DNA from: an uncultured Spirochaetales bacterium
GTDB taxonomy: Bacteria; Spirochaetota; Spirochaetia; DTKZ01
Assembly: GCA_937991975.1 (NCBI GenBank)
Contig: CALKLC010000031.1
Coordinates: forward strand, 1 to 43,986
Reading direction: 5' to 3'
Length of the DNA: 43,986 nt
Shown: positions 7,683 to 16,060 of the stretch, one piece after another
Layout: each line of letters opens with the position of its first letter
Position numbering within the stretch: the stretch's first letter is position 1
The notes under the pieces: model-generated
Told to the model about the DNA's origin: nothing
What the model saw: only the letters and a program-made list of their open reading frames with translations
Database searches by the model: none
Program-made: the position numbers and the translations under genes

Positions 7683-10600
7683 TTAGAAGGTAAAGTGTGC
7701 CGAGATCCCTCCCGAGAGACCCATAAGGATTCTATAGCCGGGGGGGAGCCCCGAGTAGTCTTCTTCGAATCCGAGTCCTAACTTTATTTCGGCTTTTATG
7801 TATCCATACTTGGGGAAGGTGAGGGCTGTTTCGTGCCCCAGCACCAGGTACTGCTTCCACCCTTCCCTGTCTTCGTACCGGTACTCCAGCTTTTCCGTAT
7901 GCAGGTAGTAGGCTCCCAGATCCCGAGCCTTGCGAAGGGTTGAAGTACCAAAATCGTTCAGGACAAGACCTTTCCATGTGTACCCGAGGATGAGTGAGCC
8001 ATAGAAGGAAAATCCTTTGAGTCCCTCCAGGTACACACTATGTTCTGCCGTCGCTTTTTGTTCTTTTTCACCAAATAGTGTGACTTTCTGCTGGGAAGAA
8101 ACCTTCCATTGCCAGGAGGATTCCTCTTCTCTGTGAAGGATGGAGAGTGTATGCTTATGCTGGTACTCATCCGTGTACCAGAGGGTAGTGAAAGGATGCG
8201 CTCCAACTTTTCCAAACAGGTTCAGTGCGGAATACAGGAGGGATAGGTCAAACTGGTTGGTGGTGGTAAGGGTGTCCCTATCCCGCGAGAGAGTTTTTTT
8301 GAAGGAGCTTTCTCCTTGAGCGGGGATAAGGAGGTCCCTCAGGTAGGAACCATAAGGCCGGGAAAAAGATAGACGGAATTGTGAAATATACTCGGCAGAG
8401 GCAAGACCCCTGGTATCAGAAGAGAAGCGGGACCATCTTCCGGGAACTCCCAGCTCATAGAATGGGTAAGACCGATAGAAGTACTCCTGGTCATAGAGCG
8501 CGTCTTTTAAAGTAGATAGATCCGAACGAAAGTCTCCGTATGAGGGAACCGATCGAGTGTTCGTTCCTTGTCTGAGGTAGGAAAGGACGATGGAGGTAGC
8601 GGGACCTGTATCCTGTGTCCGGAAGCGGAGGGGAACCTCCAGCAGGAGCTTTTCCATTGTCCGTTGAAGACCATCTTTCTCACCTGTATTTACATACGAT
8701 ACTTCGGGTGTAATCCGCAAGCCCAGAACATCACCCTCTGCCTGGGTCTCCCATCGAAAGAGCCCTTCCCGCTGGATGTTGCTCCCTTCGGTGTAGGGGA
8801 AGATCAATCGATAGGAGTGGATCCAGGAATTTGCATAGGGCTCTGTTTCCAGGGAATATCCCTCTGCGCTGTGGGAAAGCTTTCCGCTGATTCGGAGTGA
8901 AAGGGCTGATACGGGAATACTGGTCAGATTTGCGTCCCATGTTTGGGTTAAGATCCTGGTAGAATAGGAAGCTTCCGATCCTGTGGCAAGGTTGAAAAGG
9001 GGACCAAGGTTCATATCTATCCGATTGGTCCGACTGAGGAAGGCTGCTTCCGCATAGTAACTCCGCTTGAACTGATCCCGTACTGTCACCACACCCCCTT
9101 CTGCGGGAAACTGTAAACGATGTCCTCCCTCGTATTGCATCCGATCCAGGAGCCGGTCAAAGGCGAAGGAGCCCTCTGTTCGGAGAAGTCCCAAAAGATC
9201 TATGGATCCTTCGGAGCTGGAACTCAAAAGGCTGGGGGTTTCCTCTTTGAGTCTGGCCTGAAATGCCTGGGTACGGGTGGAAAGTTTTTGGGAAACCAAA
9301 AGGTTCTTCACCAGAGGCACATCTCCGATCGTTACGACAGTTCCCGGTACCGAGAAAGATCCTTCAAAGGAGGAAGCGAAACTCCAGCCTGCCCGGGGAC
9401 TGGAAAGGTAGAGTTCGTCCAGGTATAGGGTGCCTTCCTGAGCTCCCCTCCCTTCGAACAGGAAACGGGTGATTTTCCCGAAGTTGGAATCCACCCGAAC
9501 ATTCGAAAGTTCTCTTTCCCCCAGGTACGCCTTCCTGCGGGAAAGATCCACGGTCAGCTTCTCCCATCGATTCTCTGCTGTTGCGGGAATCTCTACATAG
9601 GCGCCCTTTCCATCCGGATCGGTAAACTGGAAGCTGTACCGTGCTTCTGCTGGTGTTCCACTTAACGCGCCTGTACGGATGTAAAGGTTCACCTCCCGAT
9701 ACTGTTCGGGGGGGATTTCACGGATGGGACTGTACAGTACCCATCTATCGCCAGAGCCGAGGTTTTTCCACTTTACTTCCAGGACCTTTTGAGTCGTGTC
9801 TCCCGAGTGGAATGTGTTGATTCGATCAGGATCGACTTTATCTAAAGGGATAGAGGGTTGAACATCGGAGAGGGATTCATAGATCTCCCGAACTTCCATT
9901 TCCCCCTTTCCCACTACCTGATGGGGAAGGGTGGTTCCTTCAAACACAATGGGGCCGATCAGGATTTTCCCTTCCGCGTCACCGGACCCTACTTTCCGAA
10001 CTATGAAGCGAACCGACCGAACTGCCTTTAACCGGCTCCGCTCCATGTAGGGAATCCGGATAAGGGCGGTTTTCCAGTCCCCTCCTGAGGATGCATCCAG
10101 GAGAAAGCTCCCTTCGGAAGATCCCGGACCCGGAAAGATCAGGGGTGGATTCTCCGCTTCCAGAATCCCATTTCGGTTGGCGTCTTCCGAATCTCGTTGA
10201 TTGTTCCCCAATCCCTCCTGTCCTGCACCCACGTACAGGGTAAGGGTTCCCTGGTTGAAGGCGTAACCCCGGGAACTGGGACCCACTTCCTCGTCCAGCA
10301 CTCCATCTCCATCGAGGTCTTCATCGATGGATCCTGCCTGGAAGTTCAGGGATACCTGGGAGCCCGTATGGGTAACCACTTTGTAGGCGAACCGGATGGC
10401 CGTGACCTCTGAAAGGTCCAGGGAAGAACCGAACCCTGTGTTTAGATTCATTTGAGCCCCTACCCATAGCTCAGAGGAGTTTAACTGGTAATCCAGGACA
10501 AGCACCCGACTAAACCCTTCGGCTGAGGCAGAAGCGGTGTAGGGGCCGGGTAAGGAGCCGTTCTCATAGGGGAAAATGGCTCCTGAAGGAGGATTCCATG

Positions 10601-12521
10601 TATAGGGATTCAGTACAGTTCCTCCCAGTAGATCTACCGTTTCGTAGTTTTTGAATAAAAGTCTGCCCCGGTTGTCCTGATTCAACGTGCCTCCAAAGAA
10701 GGAAGGATCAGGGATAGAAGAGGGGAAGGCGTTGTTCTTTGAGATTTCGAGGGTCAAATTGTACCCTTCCATGCCCAATAAACGAAGGAGGCCAGACGTA
10801 TCAGGGTTGTAGTACACAATAGCCCCATCGGCAATGAGATTTAGATTCTCTTTTTTATAGGAGACTTGTGAAGAGATTCCCACGATTCCCGGATGGTCGG
10901 TGGGTTCTGAGCTGTAACTTCCCTTCAGTACGTTCCATCTTACCCCAAGGGCAATTTTGCCTTCCAGAGCATCGCTCCACTGTATGGAGTTCCCCATTCC
11001 AAACAGGATATCTCCACCAGCCCCCTGTCCCGAGGCGGTACGGTAATAGATCTCGATCCGATCGGAGGAAGCAGGCTCGTAAGGAAGGCTCACCGTTCCT
11101 TTTTCGTAATCCACACTGAACAACTGTTCTTCCCGGCCGTTTCGAAACACCCGAACAGATCCGGGGATCACATCGGTAGCAACACTGTAGGATTGAACAG
11201 GAGTGTACGTTTGAATCAGGATCTCGAAGTCTATAGTACTTCCAGGCTTTCGGGAGTCCGGCCCGTACAGGAGGGGTGCCTCTTCGGCAAAGGGGAACCG
11301 GGCTCGGAAGGAACGGCGGTTTTCTTCAGGGAGGGCCATTCGTAGGATCGATTCACCGGGATTGTACACAGGTTGGACAGGGTAAGCCAGGGAAAGGGGA
11401 GTGTCGGATCCACGCTTCACTATCCGGCTTCTCACGTTCGACCCTGATGGGGTGGTAGTACTCTGGGTGGAGTAGGTACCGTAATCCTGGAAAGGAGAAA
11501 AGGCTCCGGGATCGTACAGAAGTAGGGATGTCTTTCCCCCCAGGGTTACCTTGAACCGATCGATGGGTGCATTAAGGTAGTCGCCTCTGTACCAGGAAAA
11601 GTCCTCGCCTTCGGCCAGAGGATCCACCTGCCAGGGAGCGTTTGGGGCCGTCTTTATGAACGTGGGAAGGGCTTTTTTCCCTAAAGAGGAGGAACCAACC
11701 GGTAAACCGTTCTTCTCGTAGTACACCACCACTCGCCCGGCCGAGGGTTTCTGTAAGCTTACCAATCCTTCGCTCCGTGATAGGGATACATCGAACTCGG
11801 TTGCCTTCCTATACCTGCGACCGTCGCTACCCGAAACAGAGCCTTTGTTGTCCTCGAGGTATACTTCCACTGCATCCACTTCTGTATCCGGAAGGACAAA
11901 GAACCTCCCCTGTACGAAGGAAGAGGGATCGATCCGCAGTTCCTCTACCGAGTTCTTACCCACATAGGTTTTCTTCACAGGTTGGGAGGGATCGTATCGG
12001 AGGAGGAACTCATGCCGCGTGCGTTCTGTCTGAAGACGAGCTGCGATTCCAGGCGAACTCCTGCTGCCCCCGGGAAAGTCCATATAGGGATACGGAGAGA
12101 TCTCGATCCCCATGTTCCCCGCTCGAACGGATTGAAGTACTTCTCCTTCCTTGCCCTGGTACCCGAGCACATAACTATTCAGCTGTCGTTTTTCCTGTAG
12201 GGTGGTTTCGAAGAAGTATCGATCCATCAGCCAGAGAGCGAGGGTCAGGTTTGGTTTTTGCTCATAGATCACTCCGTCGGAAAAACCAGGAAAGACGAAA
12301 GGGTACTGGATCCCTTTTCCAGGAACTACAGACAGGCCGATGGATCCGCTCAGGGAAGCATCCCAGTACCCGTCCAGCCGTAGATCTACATCCGCGTCTC
12401 CCACTTTGGTCTGGAACACTGTTTCCGGAGCCTCCTGTAAGGGGTTCTTTGGCAGTGTTTGTGCAAGGAGAGAGTACGCAATGGTACAGAGCAGTAAAGC
12501 CAGAAGAGAGAGCCGTTCCAC
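7683..12521 (-). CDS. Giant outer-membrane protein of 1612 residues, possibly SprA-like
   Basis: The protein begins at GTG 12521 with a signal peptide (hydrophobic residues 4-19, cleavage near LLA-Q). Nearly all of the rest is beta-strand-like, and it ends in the aromatic HFTF. Residues 200-275 and 455-495 contain repeated modules of the form 'DYEKGTVSLPYEPASSDRIEIYY'-like strands. Two Asp-rich loops, DEDLDGDGVLDEE (733-745) and DSEDANRNGILEAE (777-790), look like calcium-binding turns. Around residues 950-1090 there is a beta-sandwich-like section, and the last 500 residues have the long aromatic-rich strands of a barrel. Size, Asp-rich loops and sandwich-plus-barrel layout recall SprA/Sov, the type IX secretion translocon, but no other type IX gene is visible here. 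It is the first gene of the minus-strand cluster that runs to mutL, with an 82-base gap before the next gene. Confidence 0.7.
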   Translation of the reverse strand: MERLSLLALLLCTIAYSLLAQTLPKNPLQEAPETVFQTKVGDADVDLRLDGYWDASLSGSIGLSVVPGKGIQYPFVFPGFSDGVIYEQKPNLTLALWLMDRYFFETTLQEKRQLNSYVLGYQGKEGEVLQSVRAGNMGIEISPYPYMDFPGGSRSSPGIAARLQTERTRHEFLLRYDPSQPVKKTYVGKNSVEELRIDPSSFVQGRFFVLPDTEVDAVEVYLEDNKGSVSGSDGRRYRKATEFDVSLSRSEGLVSLQKPSAGRVVVYYEKNGLPVGSSSLGKKALPTFIKTAPNAPWQVDPLAEGEDFSWYRGDYLNAPIDRFKVTLGGKTSLLLYDPGAFSPFQDYGTYSTQSTTTPSGSNVRSRIVKRGSDTPLSLAYPVQPVYNPGESILRMALPEENRRSFRARFPFAEEAPLLYGPDSRKPGSTIDFEILIQTYTPVQSYSVATDVIPGSVRVFRNGREEQLFSVDYEKGTVSLPYEPASSDRIEIYYRTASGQGAGGDILFGMGNSIQWSDALEGKIALGVRWNVLKGSYSSEPTDHPGIVGISSQVSYKKENLNLIADGAIVYYNPDTSGLLRLLGMEGYNLTLEISKNNAFPSSIPDPSFFGGTLNQDNRGRLLFKNYETVDLLGGTVLNPYTWNPPSGAIFPYENGSLPGPYTASASAEGFSRVLVLDYQLNSSELWVGAQMNLNTGFGSSLDLSEVTAIRFAYKVVTHTGSQVSLNFQAGSIDEDLDGDGVLDEEVGPSSRGYAFNQGTLTLYVGAGQEGLGNNQRDSEDANRNGILEAENPPLIFPGPGSSEGSFLLDASSGGDWKTALIRIPYMERSRLKAVRSVRFIVRKVGSGDAEGKILIGPIVFEGTTLPHQVVGKGEMEVREIYESLSDVQPSIPLDKVDPDRINTFHSGDTTQKVLEVKWKNLGSGDRWVLYSPIREIPPEQYREVNLYIRTGALSGTPAEARYSFQFTDPDGKGAYVEIPATAENRWEKLTVDLSRRKAYLGERELSNVRVDSNFGKITRFLFEGRGAQEGTLYLDELYLSSPRAGWSFASSFEGSFSVPGTVVTIGDVPLVKNLLVSQKLSTRTQAFQARLKEETPSLLSSSSEGSIDLLGLLRTEGSFAFDRLLDRMQYEGGHRLQFPAEGGVVTVRDQFKRSYYAEAAFLSRTNRIDMNLGPLFNLATGSEASYSTRILTQTWDANLTSIPVSALSLRISGKLSHSAEGYSLETEPYANSWIHSYRLIFPYTEGSNIQREGLFRWETQAEGDVLGLRITPEVSYVNTGEKDGLQRTMEKLLLEVPLRFRTQDTGPATSIVLSYLRQGTNTRSVPSYGDFRSDLSTLKDALYDQEYFYRSYPFYELGVPGRWSRFSSDTRGLASAEYISQFRLSFSRPYGSYLRDLLIPAQGESSFKKTLSRDRDTLTTTNQFDLSLLYSALNLFGKVGAHPFTTLWYTDEYQHKHTLSILHREEESSWQWKVSSQQKVTLFGEKEQKATAEHSVYLEGLKGFSFYGSLILGYTWKGLVLNDFGTSTLRKARDLGAYYLHTEKLEYRYEDREGWKQYLVLGHETALTFPKYGYIKAEIKLGLGFEEDYSGLPPGYRILMGLSGGISAHFTF

Positions 12522-12528
12522 GCTCTAT

Positions 12529-12557
12529 ATAGTATGCCCTTGTTCCCCCTTGTGCAA
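12529..12557 (-). promoter_or_regulatory. Promoter of the giant OMP gene (leaderless geometry)
   Basis: On the minus strand TTGCAC (12552-12557), 17 bases, then TACTAT (12529-12534). Seven bases separate the -10 from GTG 12521, so the transcript would begin at or beside the start codon. No ribosome site is present. The -35 overlaps the -35 of the divergent gene at 12585. Confidence 0.55.
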
Positions 12558-12584: not shown

Positions 12585-13514
12585 ATGCCATCGGAAGTCG
12601 ACAAAGCAAAGGTTTTTCTGGGGAGACTTCTGTCCAATCCGATGTTGCAAGGGTATACTCCTCTTCAACGGGAAGAACAGATCCTCCAGCTCTTTACTAC
12701 CCATGCTTCTCAACTGGCTCCCCTGTTGACCTCGAATGAGTTCTTCCCGGGGAAAAGCTGGACCACCCTCCTGCCTATTCTAATCCAGGCCCTATTCGAA
12801 CTCACCGATCAAGATCTCTGGACTGTCCTCGAACCGTTCCTTCAGTCCGGCTTATCCCTGTCTTTCCTCCCCTTTCTTACCAAGCAGGCTGTGCCGGAAA
12901 AACAGGTAAGGGCACAACTAACCGCTCTCTTGAAGGAAATTCTCCAGTCTCCTGAAGGAAGAAGGGTGTCTACCGGACCTCTCACTGCGGTCCAGCAGGG
13001 AGGATGTTTCAGGTACATTGACGCAATCTTTGAGCGTAGATCCTATATCCATTTCGAGATCACCAAAGTACAACGGTTACGGATGAGTAAAGAAGAAATA
13101 AAAGGCATTCTCACTGTGACCCTCTTATTGAAGAGCGCCTACGTCCTCTATGTATCGGATGGGATGCATACCTATACTGATCGAATCGCTGGCGTGATCC
13201 AGGGTTCCTTTGCCGAAAAGGTCATCCGATCTTTACACAAACGAATATCTCTCCTGCCTCTTTCCATCCTTGAGAGTGCCATTCATGCGAACATGTCTTT
13301 TGGGGAGAATAGATTCATAGAAGCTACAGCTCGTCTGGCCAGTATTTTCGCTTCCCGCTACCGGACCTTTCGCGCAGGGTTACCAGTGGACCGTGGAGCT
13401 GATACTCCTGATAAGAGTTGGTTCAGTGTAGCGCGGAAGAACTATAAGTTCTATGGATTCGATATCAAAATGTTGGATGAATTGTACATGATCGCTGCAG
13501 AGATGGGGTGGTAA
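12585..13514 (+). CDS. Conserved-looking hypothetical protein, 309 residues
   Basis: I do not recognise this protein. It is soluble, mostly helical and rich in Leu, with no signal peptide or membrane segment. The middle part, GGCFRYIDAIFERRSYIHFEI, is followed by a Lys/Arg-rich turn and a hydrophobic stretch (ILTVTLLLKSAYVLYVSDG). The end has FYGFDIKMLDELYMIAAEMGW. The frame is open from 12534, but ATG 12585 is chosen because a promoter ends six bases before it and the 17 extra residues would precede the predicted transcript. It is followed after three bases by the voltage-sensor gene, with GGGGTGGTAAGG as that gene's ribosome site. The two are certainly one operon and may work together at the inner membrane. 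Confidence 0.75.
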   Translation: MPSEVDKAKVFLGRLLSNPMLQGYTPLQREEQILQLFTTHASQLAPLLTSNEFFPGKSWTTLLPILIQALFELTDQDLWTVLEPFLQSGLSLSFLPFLTKQAVPEKQVRAQLTALLKEILQSPEGRRVSTGPLTAVQQGGCFRYIDAIFERRSYIHFEITKVQRLRMSKEEIKGILTVTLLLKSAYVLYVSDGMHTYTDRIAGVIQGSFAEKVIRSLHKRISLLPLSILESAIHANMSFGENRFIEATARLASIFASRYRTFRAGLPVDRGADTPDKSWFSVARKNYKFYGFDIKMLDELYMIAAEMGW

Positions 13515-13517
13515 GGT

Positions 13518-14630
13518 ATGAAACGATCCTTCTGGGAACATGTAGTAGTGGGGGCCATCATCCTCGTACTCATTCAGACTGTAGTGGACGATATGGCAAC
13601 CTTAGCCGATTGGCCCTGGAATGTCCGAAGGGTACTCCTTTACCTGGGATTCTTATTCGATCTATTCTTTTCCGTCGAGTTTCTCGTTCGTTTGTACCTT
13701 GCCTATGTAGACGGACAGGCGAAAGAGTACTTCTTCCGTGGGTATGGATGGATAGATCTACTAGCCTCGATCCCGCTTTTACTGTTCAATTCCGGCCCTG
13801 TTGTCTATGGACTGCTGGGAGGCGGGGTACCTGTATTTGGAATGGGCAGATCCCTGAACCTGCTGAAGACCGTCAAAGTTGTACGGGTAGCGCGCATTCT
13901 CAGGGTACTTCGGATGTTAAAAGTAGTGAGAAGACTTAAACAAACCGATTCGGTAATGGCACAGCGGCATATCGGAAAGATCGTTACTTCTGTCCTGGCT
14001 ACCTGTATTCTGGTGTTTTCTATCGGAACCTTTTTACTCCAGAGTAGATCGGGAAAATCATTCGAACAGATGTACTGGGAGGCTGTAGAATCAGCGTCGG
14101 ACACTCTGGGGAAGGTATCGAGTGCCGAACTCAATGCTACTGTACAGACAATTGCTCGTGTTCTTCCCCCTCTCCTCAAGGTCAAGGCAGAAGGCAAGGA
14201 CCTATTCTTCAGGCACGACTCGTTCTATCTGGCTACTCGGTTTGGGCCCTACGATTATTTCTATGAACGACGAGGTTCTGTGGAGTTATTCTTCGATTAT
14301 CGACCGATCACTCGATTACAGGCGGAGGAAAGCCTCCTTATTCTCACCATGGTGCTTGGGATTCTCCTTATTCTTCTTTTCTACTATGCTCCTCACTTTG
14401 CCGTCACTGTGTCAGACCCCCTCTTTGTAATGCTGAAAGGATTCAAAGAACCTTCGTACAACCTCGAAGTCAAGATCCCTCCTCACCTGAAAGAGGACGA
14501 GGTGTTCCGCCTGGCAGCGCAGTACAATGAAGAGTACCTTCCTATCAAACAGCGGAATTTGAGCATGGGGGAAGGGAAAACATCCGACATACAGTGGGAG
14601 GCGGTTTCGGAACTGTTCAAGAAAGGGTAA
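13518..14630 (+). CDS. Voltage-sensor membrane protein with degenerate channel pore and HAMP-like tail
   Basis: This 370-residue protein has six predicted membrane segments: S1 9-26, S2 38-63 (with D48 and E54), S3 78-90 (D80), S4 114-140, then 152-174 and 272-290. S4 carries basic residues at every third position: K117, K120, R123, R126, R129, R132, K135 and R138. This is the hallmark of voltage-gated cation channels (ion transport family). After the fifth segment SFEQMYWEAVESASDTLGKV (181-200) lies where a pore helix and filter would be, but the TVGYG or similar selectivity filter is absent. About 70 extra residues follow outside the membrane before the sixth segment. Residues about 296-345 (DPLFVMLKGF, then EDEVFRLAAQYN) resemble a HAMP linker. 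It may be a voltage-responsive signalling protein rather than a channel; that is inference. Confidence 0.8.
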   Translation: MKRSFWEHVVVGAIILVLIQTVVDDMATLADWPWNVRRVLLYLGFLFDLFFSVEFLVRLYLAYVDGQAKEYFFRGYGWIDLLASIPLLLFNSGPVVYGLLGGGVPVFGMGRSLNLLKTVKVVRVARILRVLRMLKVVRRLKQTDSVMAQRHIGKIVTSVLATCILVFSIGTFLLQSRSGKSFEQMYWEAVESASDTLGKVSSAELNATVQTIARVLPPLLKVKAEGKDLFFRHDSFYLATRFGPYDYFYERRGSVELFFDYRPITRLQAEESLLILTMVLGILLILLFYYAPHFAVTVSDPLFVMLKGFKEPSYNLEVKIPPHLKEDEVFRLAAQYNEEYLPIKQRNLSMGEGKTSDIQWEAVSELFKKG

Positions 14631-14634
14631 CTGT

Positions 14635-14922
14635 ATGGTGATCTCCATGATTCAACTGATCATTGAACTTCCGGACATTGGATCCATCAAAGAAAAGAGA
14701 CGGATTGTAAACTCCCTGCGAGAAAAACTACGGGTTCGGTTCAAAATCTCCGTTGCAGAGGTGGATTTGCAGGATTCCCTTCGTTTTTCCCAGATCGGAG
14801 GTGCGGTAGTTTCCAATTCCAGGCAGTATGGTGAACAAGTGATGATGAAGGTTCTCAATTTTGTGGAAAACGAAGTGCCTGGCAGAATTCAGGACGTCCA
14901 GATTCGCTCAGAGATCTACTGA
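14635..14922 (+). CDS. DUF503 family (YlxP-like) protein
   Basis: This small protein of 95 residues matches the DUF503/YlxP family: IKEKRRIVNSLREKL (17-31), then FKISVAEVDLQDSLRFSQIG and VVSNSRQYGEQ. YlxP-like proteins are often encoded near nusA, infB and rbfA and have been linked to ribosome maturation, but their exact role is not settled. Here it lies apart from those genes. AAGAAAGGG inside the end of the upstream gene serves as ribosome site, and the ATG is only four bases past the upstream stop, so it is the third gene of the 12585 operon. A second ATG four codons in is possible, but the longer start fits the family's beta strand better. The next gene is convergent, six bases away. Confidence 0.88.
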   Translation: MVISMIQLIIELPDIGSIKEKRRIVNSLREKLRVRFKISVAEVDLQDSLRFSQIGGAVVSNSRQYGEQVMMKVLNFVENEVPGRIQDVQIRSEIY

Positions 14923-14928
14923 GTTTGG

Positions 14929-15615
14929 CTACTTAGGAATCAGGAATAATTCGGGTAATTTGTAGTCAGGATTTTTCCATGGATTGGCTTCCAGGTCCTC
15001 TTCTGCGACTGCTTCGATTTTAAAGTAGTGATGAAAGGGTTCGAATCGATCGTCTTCAACCCGGATTTCCAGTTCGAAGGTTCTCTGTTCCCCGGCTTTC
15101 GAGGCCTGGACGGGTCGGGGAAGGAACAGGAAAGTCCCTTCCAGCTTCTCGTCGAGAAAGAAGGGGTTCTGCCATCGTTTGTCGATCATGGGAAGGAGTT
15201 CATCTTCCCAGCATAACTCTATGGAAACCCCTTGCACAGGTTCGAAATTCGTGCAGTTAAGGAGTTTTCCTTTGATGGTGGGCAGAAAGAAGGCAGGACC
15301 TTCGATCGATTTGGCCTCCAGCGGAGCGTCATAGTAAGGTCTTTTCACCGTTTCGATCCGTTTAAGGCCCTCATGGATAAGAGTGACGATATCAACCCGA
15401 AGCTGCGGGTTTTCTTTGAGGGCTCGTTCTGTATGAGCCATTCCGCGGCCCGAGGTGACGTAGTACTGAGGAATACGGTTTAACACATAGCACGCTAAAT
15501 CCATCCGGCATTGAGGGCTCAACAGGTACTCTATTTCCTTTTTTTTCGATTCTTCCTGCAGAATTTCATTCACCATCCGCAGGACAATATCCTCCATGAG
15601 GTTATGTATCTCCAT
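14929..15615 (-). CDS. ComFB-like domain protein, possible cyclic-di-GMP receptor
   Basis: The first 65 residues match the late-competence ComFB family: MEIHNLMEDIVLRMVNEIL, then CRMDLACYVLNRIPQYYVTSGRG. ComFB-domain proteins in cyanobacteria bind cyclic-di-GMP; the Bacillus protein has several zinc-binding cysteines, which are reduced here. Residues about 95-228 form a second domain I do not recognise, with beta-strand character and an acidic end (ELFLIPK at the terminus). The frame is open to a GTG at 15639, but ATG 15615 is preferred because AAGGGAG lies seven bases before it. It overlaps the end of the upstream 152-residue gene by 14 bases, so the pair is translationally coupled. Placement next to two PilZ genes supports a second-messenger role, by inference. 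Confidence 0.75.
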   Translation of the reverse strand: MEIHNLMEDIVLRMVNEILQEESKKKEIEYLLSPQCRMDLACYVLNRIPQYYVTSGRGMAHTERALKENPQLRVDIVTLIHEGLKRIETVKRPYYDAPLEAKSIEGPAFFLPTIKGKLLNCTNFEPVQGVSIELCWEDELLPMIDKRWQNPFFLDEKLEGTFLFLPRPVQASKAGEQRTFELEIRVEDDRFEPFHHYFKIEAVAEEDLEANPWKNPDYKLPELFLIPK

Positions 15616-16060
15616 GAGATTCTCCCTTGCGGTACTCACTCTTGATTTCTGTCAATTCCCGAATATCCCCAACAGCGGCCTTGAAATCCTTCAAAGTCTC
15701 TTTCAGGGAGTAATAGTTCAATCCTGCGTAGTAAATCTTTGAAAAGATTGAAAGGGATGTTTCATTCTTGGTGAATTGTATGTTCATGTAGCATCCATAC
15801 TCGTAACAGGTACGAAAGATGTCTTCGATCCGCGATCTGAGATACTCCTGCAAGGTGTTGGAAAAAGTGAAAGTATACACGATTTCGAGGAACTTGCTAT
15901 CCTCATCGATGAAGAAACTGCCCTGGTACCCTTCTTCGTTTTGAAAGGATGCGGTAAAGGCTCCGTCGCTTTCATCAGGATCTATAAGATTAAAACCCAG
16001 CTCTTTGAAAAGAACCTGGGTTCTCTGAATCCGTTCTTTCATTAGTTTGGAGTATTTCAT
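15602..16060 (-). CDS. Hypothetical protein, 152 residues, YbjN-like in outline
   Basis: I do not recognise this with certainty. It has an N-terminal helix (MKYSKLMKERIQRTQVLFKE), then two acidic beta strands with aromatic residues (GAFTASFQNEEGYQGSFFIDEDSKFLEIVYTF), more strands, and a final charged helix. That alternation of helix and sheet is reminiscent of the YbjN/type III chaperone-like fold, but the match is only by outline. There is no signal peptide. A promoter with leaderless geometry ends six bases before ATG 16060. The downstream ComFB-like gene overlaps it by 14 bases, so the two products probably act together. Confidence 0.7.
   Translation of the reverse strand: MKYSKLMKERIQRTQVLFKELGFNLIDPDESDGAFTASFQNEEGYQGSFFIDEDSKFLEIVYTFTFSNTLQEYLRSRIEDIFRTCYEYGCYMNIQFTKNETSLSIFSKIYYAGLNYYSLKETLKDFKAAVGDIRELTEIKSEYRKGESHGDT

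Follow-up and report, generated by a model that had tools for sequence, protein, structure and literature searches.

The known voltage sensors that lack a pore are mainly a small number of animal proteins, and the part of a 2024 review that deals with them (PMC13095418) names phosphatases, SLC9C1 and TMEM266. Ci-VSP, SLC9C1/sNHE and TMEM266, animal proteins whose outputs are given in that part of the review as a phosphatase, an exchanger or unknown (PMC13095418), resemble the spirochaete sensor described here in combining a voltage-sensor domain with an output other than a pore. In contrast to these proteins, the output here is a bacterial TM-Cache-TM-HAMP-like module together with a separate partner protein. 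The WalK-type sensor histidine kinase (PDB 9a5d) is the best match to the predicted fold, with TM, extracytoplasmic Cache/PDC-like domain, TM and HAMP; unlike WalK, however, the present sensor lacks a kinase domain, carries a four-helix voltage sensor in front, and would pass its signal to a separate all-helical protein. Kv, KCNQ and Nav channels share with it S1-S4, the gating charges and the charge-transfer centre, whereas the sensor has neither pore helix nor selectivity filter. Among open-licence PMC papers we found no bacterial voltage-sensor receptor of such design, no paper joining a HAMP domain with a voltage-sensing domain, and nothing for BB0674/BB0675.

In the window, by which we mean the whole stretch of 43,986 nucleotides that was analysed, the sensor is encoded by a genuine open reading frame of 370 amino acids (c0; 13518-14630, plus strand), which spirochaetes share with identities mostly of 36-84%, and its layout as a voltage-sensor, Cache-like and HAMP-like protein was drawn from the reading frame, Pfam, alignment and an AlphaFold model. 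The model (72 sequences, pLDDT 85) places in order four voltage-sensor helices, TM5 (146-177), two extracytoplasmic helices, a sheet at residues 219-260, a continuous helix (262-310) comprising TM6 and the first HAMP-like helix, a connector and a helix at 328-349. A Foldseek comparison of the model with the PDB ranked a WalK model first, with a probability of 0.99 but an E-value of 8.9e-3, followed by KCNQ, Nav and Kv voltage sensors and further down by the dCACHE protein TlpC, all with modest E-values; the parts of the sensor are thus those of a voltage sensor placed before a receptor-like module. A profile search of solved-structure sequences returned no relative of the sensor or of its partner. 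We consider it fairly probable that the protein is a membrane transducer, responsive to voltage and signalling through its HAMP-like module to the partner, and not an ion channel.

The voltage-sensor domain (S1-S4, residues 2-140; 13521-13937, plus strand) was recognised by Pfam Ion_trans, which matches residues 5-188 with 59.8 bits (cut-off 25), and forms four helices in the model. A preliminary description of this DNA had pointed to eight basic residues at every third position of S4 (117-138) and to matching acids in S2 and S3, and both observations hold, the basic run extending one step further. The S4 gating-charge helix (117-141; 13866-13940, plus strand), delimited from its sequence, its conservation and a shuffle test, carries nine consecutive basic residues at 117, 120, 123, 126, 129, 132, 135, 138 and 141; when the protein was shuffled 100,000 times, no run of this kind exceeded eight, a length reached three times, and nine never occurred. 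Seven of the charges are kept at a level of at least 69/72 among the relatives (117, 69/72; 120 and 123, 71/71 each; 126, 129 and 132, 72/72 each; 135, 71/72), and that at 138 in 51/72. The F-x-x-E...D arrangement is the gating-charge transfer centre of Kv channels, and its residues are likewise kept (F51, 71/72; E54, 68/72, with D in three; D80, 72/72), as is, towards the end of S1, an acid at position 25 (72/72; D in 67, E in 5). Mean majority identity across the family is highest in S4 (0.77), followed by S3 and the S4-TM5 linker (0.71) and the HAMP-like part (0.67). The conserved linker (13938-13970, plus strand), in which S145, M147, Q149 and H151 are invariant in 20 relatives, leads into TM5 (152-177; 13971-14048, plus strand). 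Judged by its conserved charges, S1-S4 is a canonical and intact voltage-sensor domain, whose S4 would be expected to move with the membrane potential.

Outside the membrane lies a domain at residues 178-262 (14049-14303, plus strand), modelled as two helices and a four-stranded sheet and assigned as Cache/PDC-like through Foldseek matches to WalK and dCACHE with modest E-values; Pfam Cache matched none of the 20 members scanned. An insertion at this point had been noticed earlier, and it stands, although its length is about 85 residues and not about 70. The domain probably adds a second input, chemical or from the envelope. In three Brevinematales loci (L125, L126 and L128) a TM5-TM6 loop of about 13 residues replaces the whole domain, which is therefore optional, and these loci retain the voltage sensor, the HAMP-like part and the partner. 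Cache-less versions consisting of voltage sensor, short loop, TM6, HAMP-like part and partner were also seen in the more divergent L157 and L208. The simplest explanation for an intact voltage sensor beside a variable extracytoplasmic domain is selection for a voltage response. In a rather unlikely alternative, the voltage-sensor domain is a structural or dimerisation module, and the protein takes its actual input through the Cache-like domain, as ordinary sensor kinases do. Such a role would suit a Borrelia-like relative (L032/L052), which keeps the Cache domain, the HAMP-like part and the partner despite replacement of E54 by isoleucine and a reduced set of S4 charges; in the other relatives, however, the S4 charges and their countercharges rank with the best conserved residues, and the Brevinematales proteins that lack the Cache domain retain every S4 charge except the last.

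TM6 (272-296; 14331-14405, plus strand) lies in the model within the single helix 262-310, which runs on into a divergent HAMP-like helix-connector-helix (297-346; 14406-14555, plus strand) defined by hhalign, its calibration and the model, and in which D300, P301, Y336 and N337 are invariant in 20 relatives. The cytoplasmic end does fit the HAMP pattern proposed for it, at the level of a profile match and the predicted structure and not by Pfam, whose HAMP family matches 0 of 20 members even at E-values up to 10. A profile of the family tails, aligned by hhalign with 15 HAMPs of the same genome, gave a probability of 50% (E 1.6e-4, score 24.7) with a proline, an acidic pair and an asparagine in register, while the highest value was 1.2% for six other protein segments and 0.7% for 20 column shuffles. 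Taken as single sequences, the tails had a median HAMP score of 14.2 and left-out true HAMPs one of 51; the weakest true HAMP reached 27.9 and 80% as a single sequence, and the level of the tails was also attained by 5.6% of unrelated membrane segments. We name the tail HAMP-like and divergent and not a member of the HAMP family. Pfam found no phosphatase domain in the 74-residue cytoplasmic end, which thus lacks the PTEN-like domain of voltage-sensing phosphatases. The same weak similarity and Pfam failure would fit a tail that serves as a membrane anchor or docking site localising the partner, and not as a functional HAMP, but the Pro, D/E and Y-N motifs in register, the profile match, the continuity of the helix with TM6 and the rank of WalK as best fold match make this distinctly unlikely. 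A signalling role for the HAMP-like module is preferred.

No pore helix or selectivity filter was found between S5 and S6 in the protein or in 23 aligned relatives; the absence of a TVGYG-like filter, recorded in the preliminary description, thus extends to every aligned relative. In contrast, the proposal that YWEAVESASDTLGKV (186-200) marks the pore helix is rejected. The lowest mean majority identity in the family (0.25) is that of residues 178-217, the extracytoplasmic helices, and residues 186-200, within this least conserved stretch, are absent from the Brevinematales relatives that lack the extracytoplasmic domain; they are therefore no channel relic. A TM5-TM6 loop of about 13 residues leaves no space for a pore helix and filter, and the description of the protein as a voltage-sensor domain without a pore is upheld, with a Cache-like domain or a 13-residue loop found instead. 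Continued conduction, through an Hv1-like proton pathway in the voltage sensor (the voltage-sensor domain of Hv1 can carry protons alone) or an unusual oligomeric TM5/TM6 pore, would accord with the acidic residue at position 25 and the reach of the Ion_trans alignment to TM5, but is most unlikely with pore helix and filter absent and the TM5-TM6 gap taken up by an 85-residue folded domain or a 13-residue loop. The sensor would rather act as a signal transducer that conducts no ions. As to ancestry, the Ion_trans alignment through TM5 (5-188) allows an S5 origin of that helix, and hence descent from a channel, and the sensor-kinase-like predicted fold of TM5-Cache-TM6-HAMP equally allows a voltage sensor fused to a receptor.

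The stop codon of the gene directly upstream (c1; 12585-13514, plus strand) lies 3 bp ahead of the start codon of the sensor gene. The 309 amino acids assigned to its product earlier are correct, and its true start, supported by conservation of the start and of the family, is the ATG at 12585 and not the position 12534 given by the ORF lister. AlphaFold models this putative cytoplasmic partner as all helical (pLDDT 92). No Pfam family was found for it, and NCBIfam gave scattered, non-specific matches, none of them convincing. Foldseek ranked HD-GYP domains first (top match DvhD, E 1.2, probability 0.69). An identity as an HD-GYP or HDOD enzyme was considered and rejected: the profile alignment runs in order, but its hhalign P of 0.17 is no better than that of shuffles, and the HD...GYP catalytic motif is absent from c1.

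A possible control of the protein encoded just before the sensor had been suggested from the window, and a tight linkage of the two genes recurs across the family. Of the 103 informative HAMP-bearing loci, 92 have the partner immediately upstream, and of the 14 informative HAMP-less loci none has it; a single genome can contribute several loci to these counts. Four loci with c1 that had been scored as truncated stop at the edges of their contigs. L158, which was scored as lacking HAMP while having a partner, ends in 76 residues that show a degenerate HAMP-like pattern. Genome-wide, no partner gene was found in the HAMP-less genomes G005, G292, G333 and G358, nor in the genomes of L117, L119, L124 and L127. 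On the tree, HAMP changes three times, and its joint loss with the partner amounts to about one to three events, so that the linkage is not statistically independent; since a single clade accounts for the majority of HAMP-less proteins, the co-loss represents few events and is not proof. In L088/L122 the HAMP is kept and the partner was undetected genome-wide. Partner-HAMP coevolution was also considered: HAMP gave the highest mirror-tree value of three sensor segments, with a partial r of 0.315, but this lies below that of a neighbouring control gene (0.41) and is suggestive at best.

Several loci depart from the usual arrangement. The HAMP-less L117, L119, L124, L127, L129, L051, L161, L162 and L211 encode a voltage sensor and a Cache-like domain with no partner upstream (in L129 the upstream sequence is too short). 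Distant HAMP-bearing copies without the partner adjoin cytoplasmic genes that are RsbRD_N/HisK_N-like (L151) or weakly GGDEF-like (L148), and in two further copies of this set a caspase-domain (PF00656) gene replaces the partner directly upstream (L149:4458-5327; L153:4275-5207). A polysaccharide deacetylase gene lies downstream in L145 and, by size, in L146. By Pfam, the gene directly downstream of the sensor gene in L150 (4114-5454), another of the distant HAMP-bearing copies without the partner, encodes a cyclic-nucleotide-gated Ion_trans channel, and a similar reading frame occurs at L160:3548-4927.

As a voltage sensor joined to a receptor-like module and inherited with a partner, the protein may enable bacteria to translate the voltage across their membrane into chemical signalling. 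In the mechanism that we propose, S4 of the canonical voltage sensor would shift with the membrane potential, and the conserved S4-TM5 linker would pass this movement to TM5 and TM6, which carry the Cache-like domain. TM6, a single helix into the divergent HAMP-like module, would relay the signal, and the module would alter the state of the cytoplasmic 309-residue partner, presumably by direct contact. HAMP-type signalling, control of the partner and the action of the partner itself are what we infer from the combined evidence.

The family spans Spirochaetota. A scan with two conserved patterns across one genome per species (84,980 species) confirmed 87 loci, of which 77 were kept, all from records named as spirochaetes; a single-sequence scan of contigs had given no match, and the alignment-based scan succeeded. 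Among 393 Spirochaetota genomes, 119 have the sensor and 105 the partner, and both are absent from genomes of treponeme-like size (f25). A Borrelia-like genome (identity inferred; 906-kb chromosome) keeps both genes (L052:8325-10231), with reduced S4 and S2 charges and a convergent CheA-CheW-CheX-CheY operon beside the pair. Very divergent pairs occur at L155:6041-7824 and L156:5038-6935 (family f44, 2-3.4 Mb, perhaps Brachyspira); what can be recognised in them is mainly the HAMP end of the sensor and, in the partner, the C-terminal part. FliG is present in 338 of the 393 genomes and in nearly all of those with the sensor family, and the FliG-less genomes all belong to one family among the matches listed. 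As independent losses are lacking and treponeme-like genomes have FliG and not the pair, a flagellar link through FliG is uninformative.

Around the pair, a DUF503 protein (14635-14922, plus strand) is a conserved neighbour that follows it in many relatives. A ComFB-domain protein (14929-15639, minus strand; Pfam E 5e-20) is also conserved near the pair in the majority of relatives, and its distances track those of c1 (r 0.66); ComFB is reportedly a family of cyclic-dinucleotide receptors. A divergent protein of 1612 amino acids (7683-12521, minus strand), which has a signal-like N-terminus and matches no Pfam family, is a conserved neighbour of the pair in most Spirochaetia loci.

Goulbourne and Greenberg are said to have reported, in 1981 and 1983, that voltage clamping blocks chemotaxis in Spirochaeta aurantia, in papers listed among the references of PMC4841586. 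In spirochaete cells longer than 10 micrometres the motors at the two ends reverse more quickly than diffusion of CheY-P would allow, and the signal that coordinates the two ends is listed as unsolved (PMC7225975). That the family reads the membrane potential directly throughout the spirochaetes, is possibly the sensor behind the S. aurantia reports and is a candidate for electrical coordination of motors is, taken as a whole, quite unlikely. Its last part, long-range electrical coordination of the motors at the two cell ends, is speculation, since no motility gene linked to the pair was seen except the convergent che operon in the Borrelia-like genome, and treponeme-like genomes lack the pair. 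A phylum-wide family that joins a canonical voltage sensor to a receptor-type module would convert membrane potential directly into intracellular signalling. It provides a concrete and testable candidate, among others, for the unsolved motor-coordination signal, and its natural variants, whether Cache-less, HAMP-less or charge-reduced, permit each part to be dissected.
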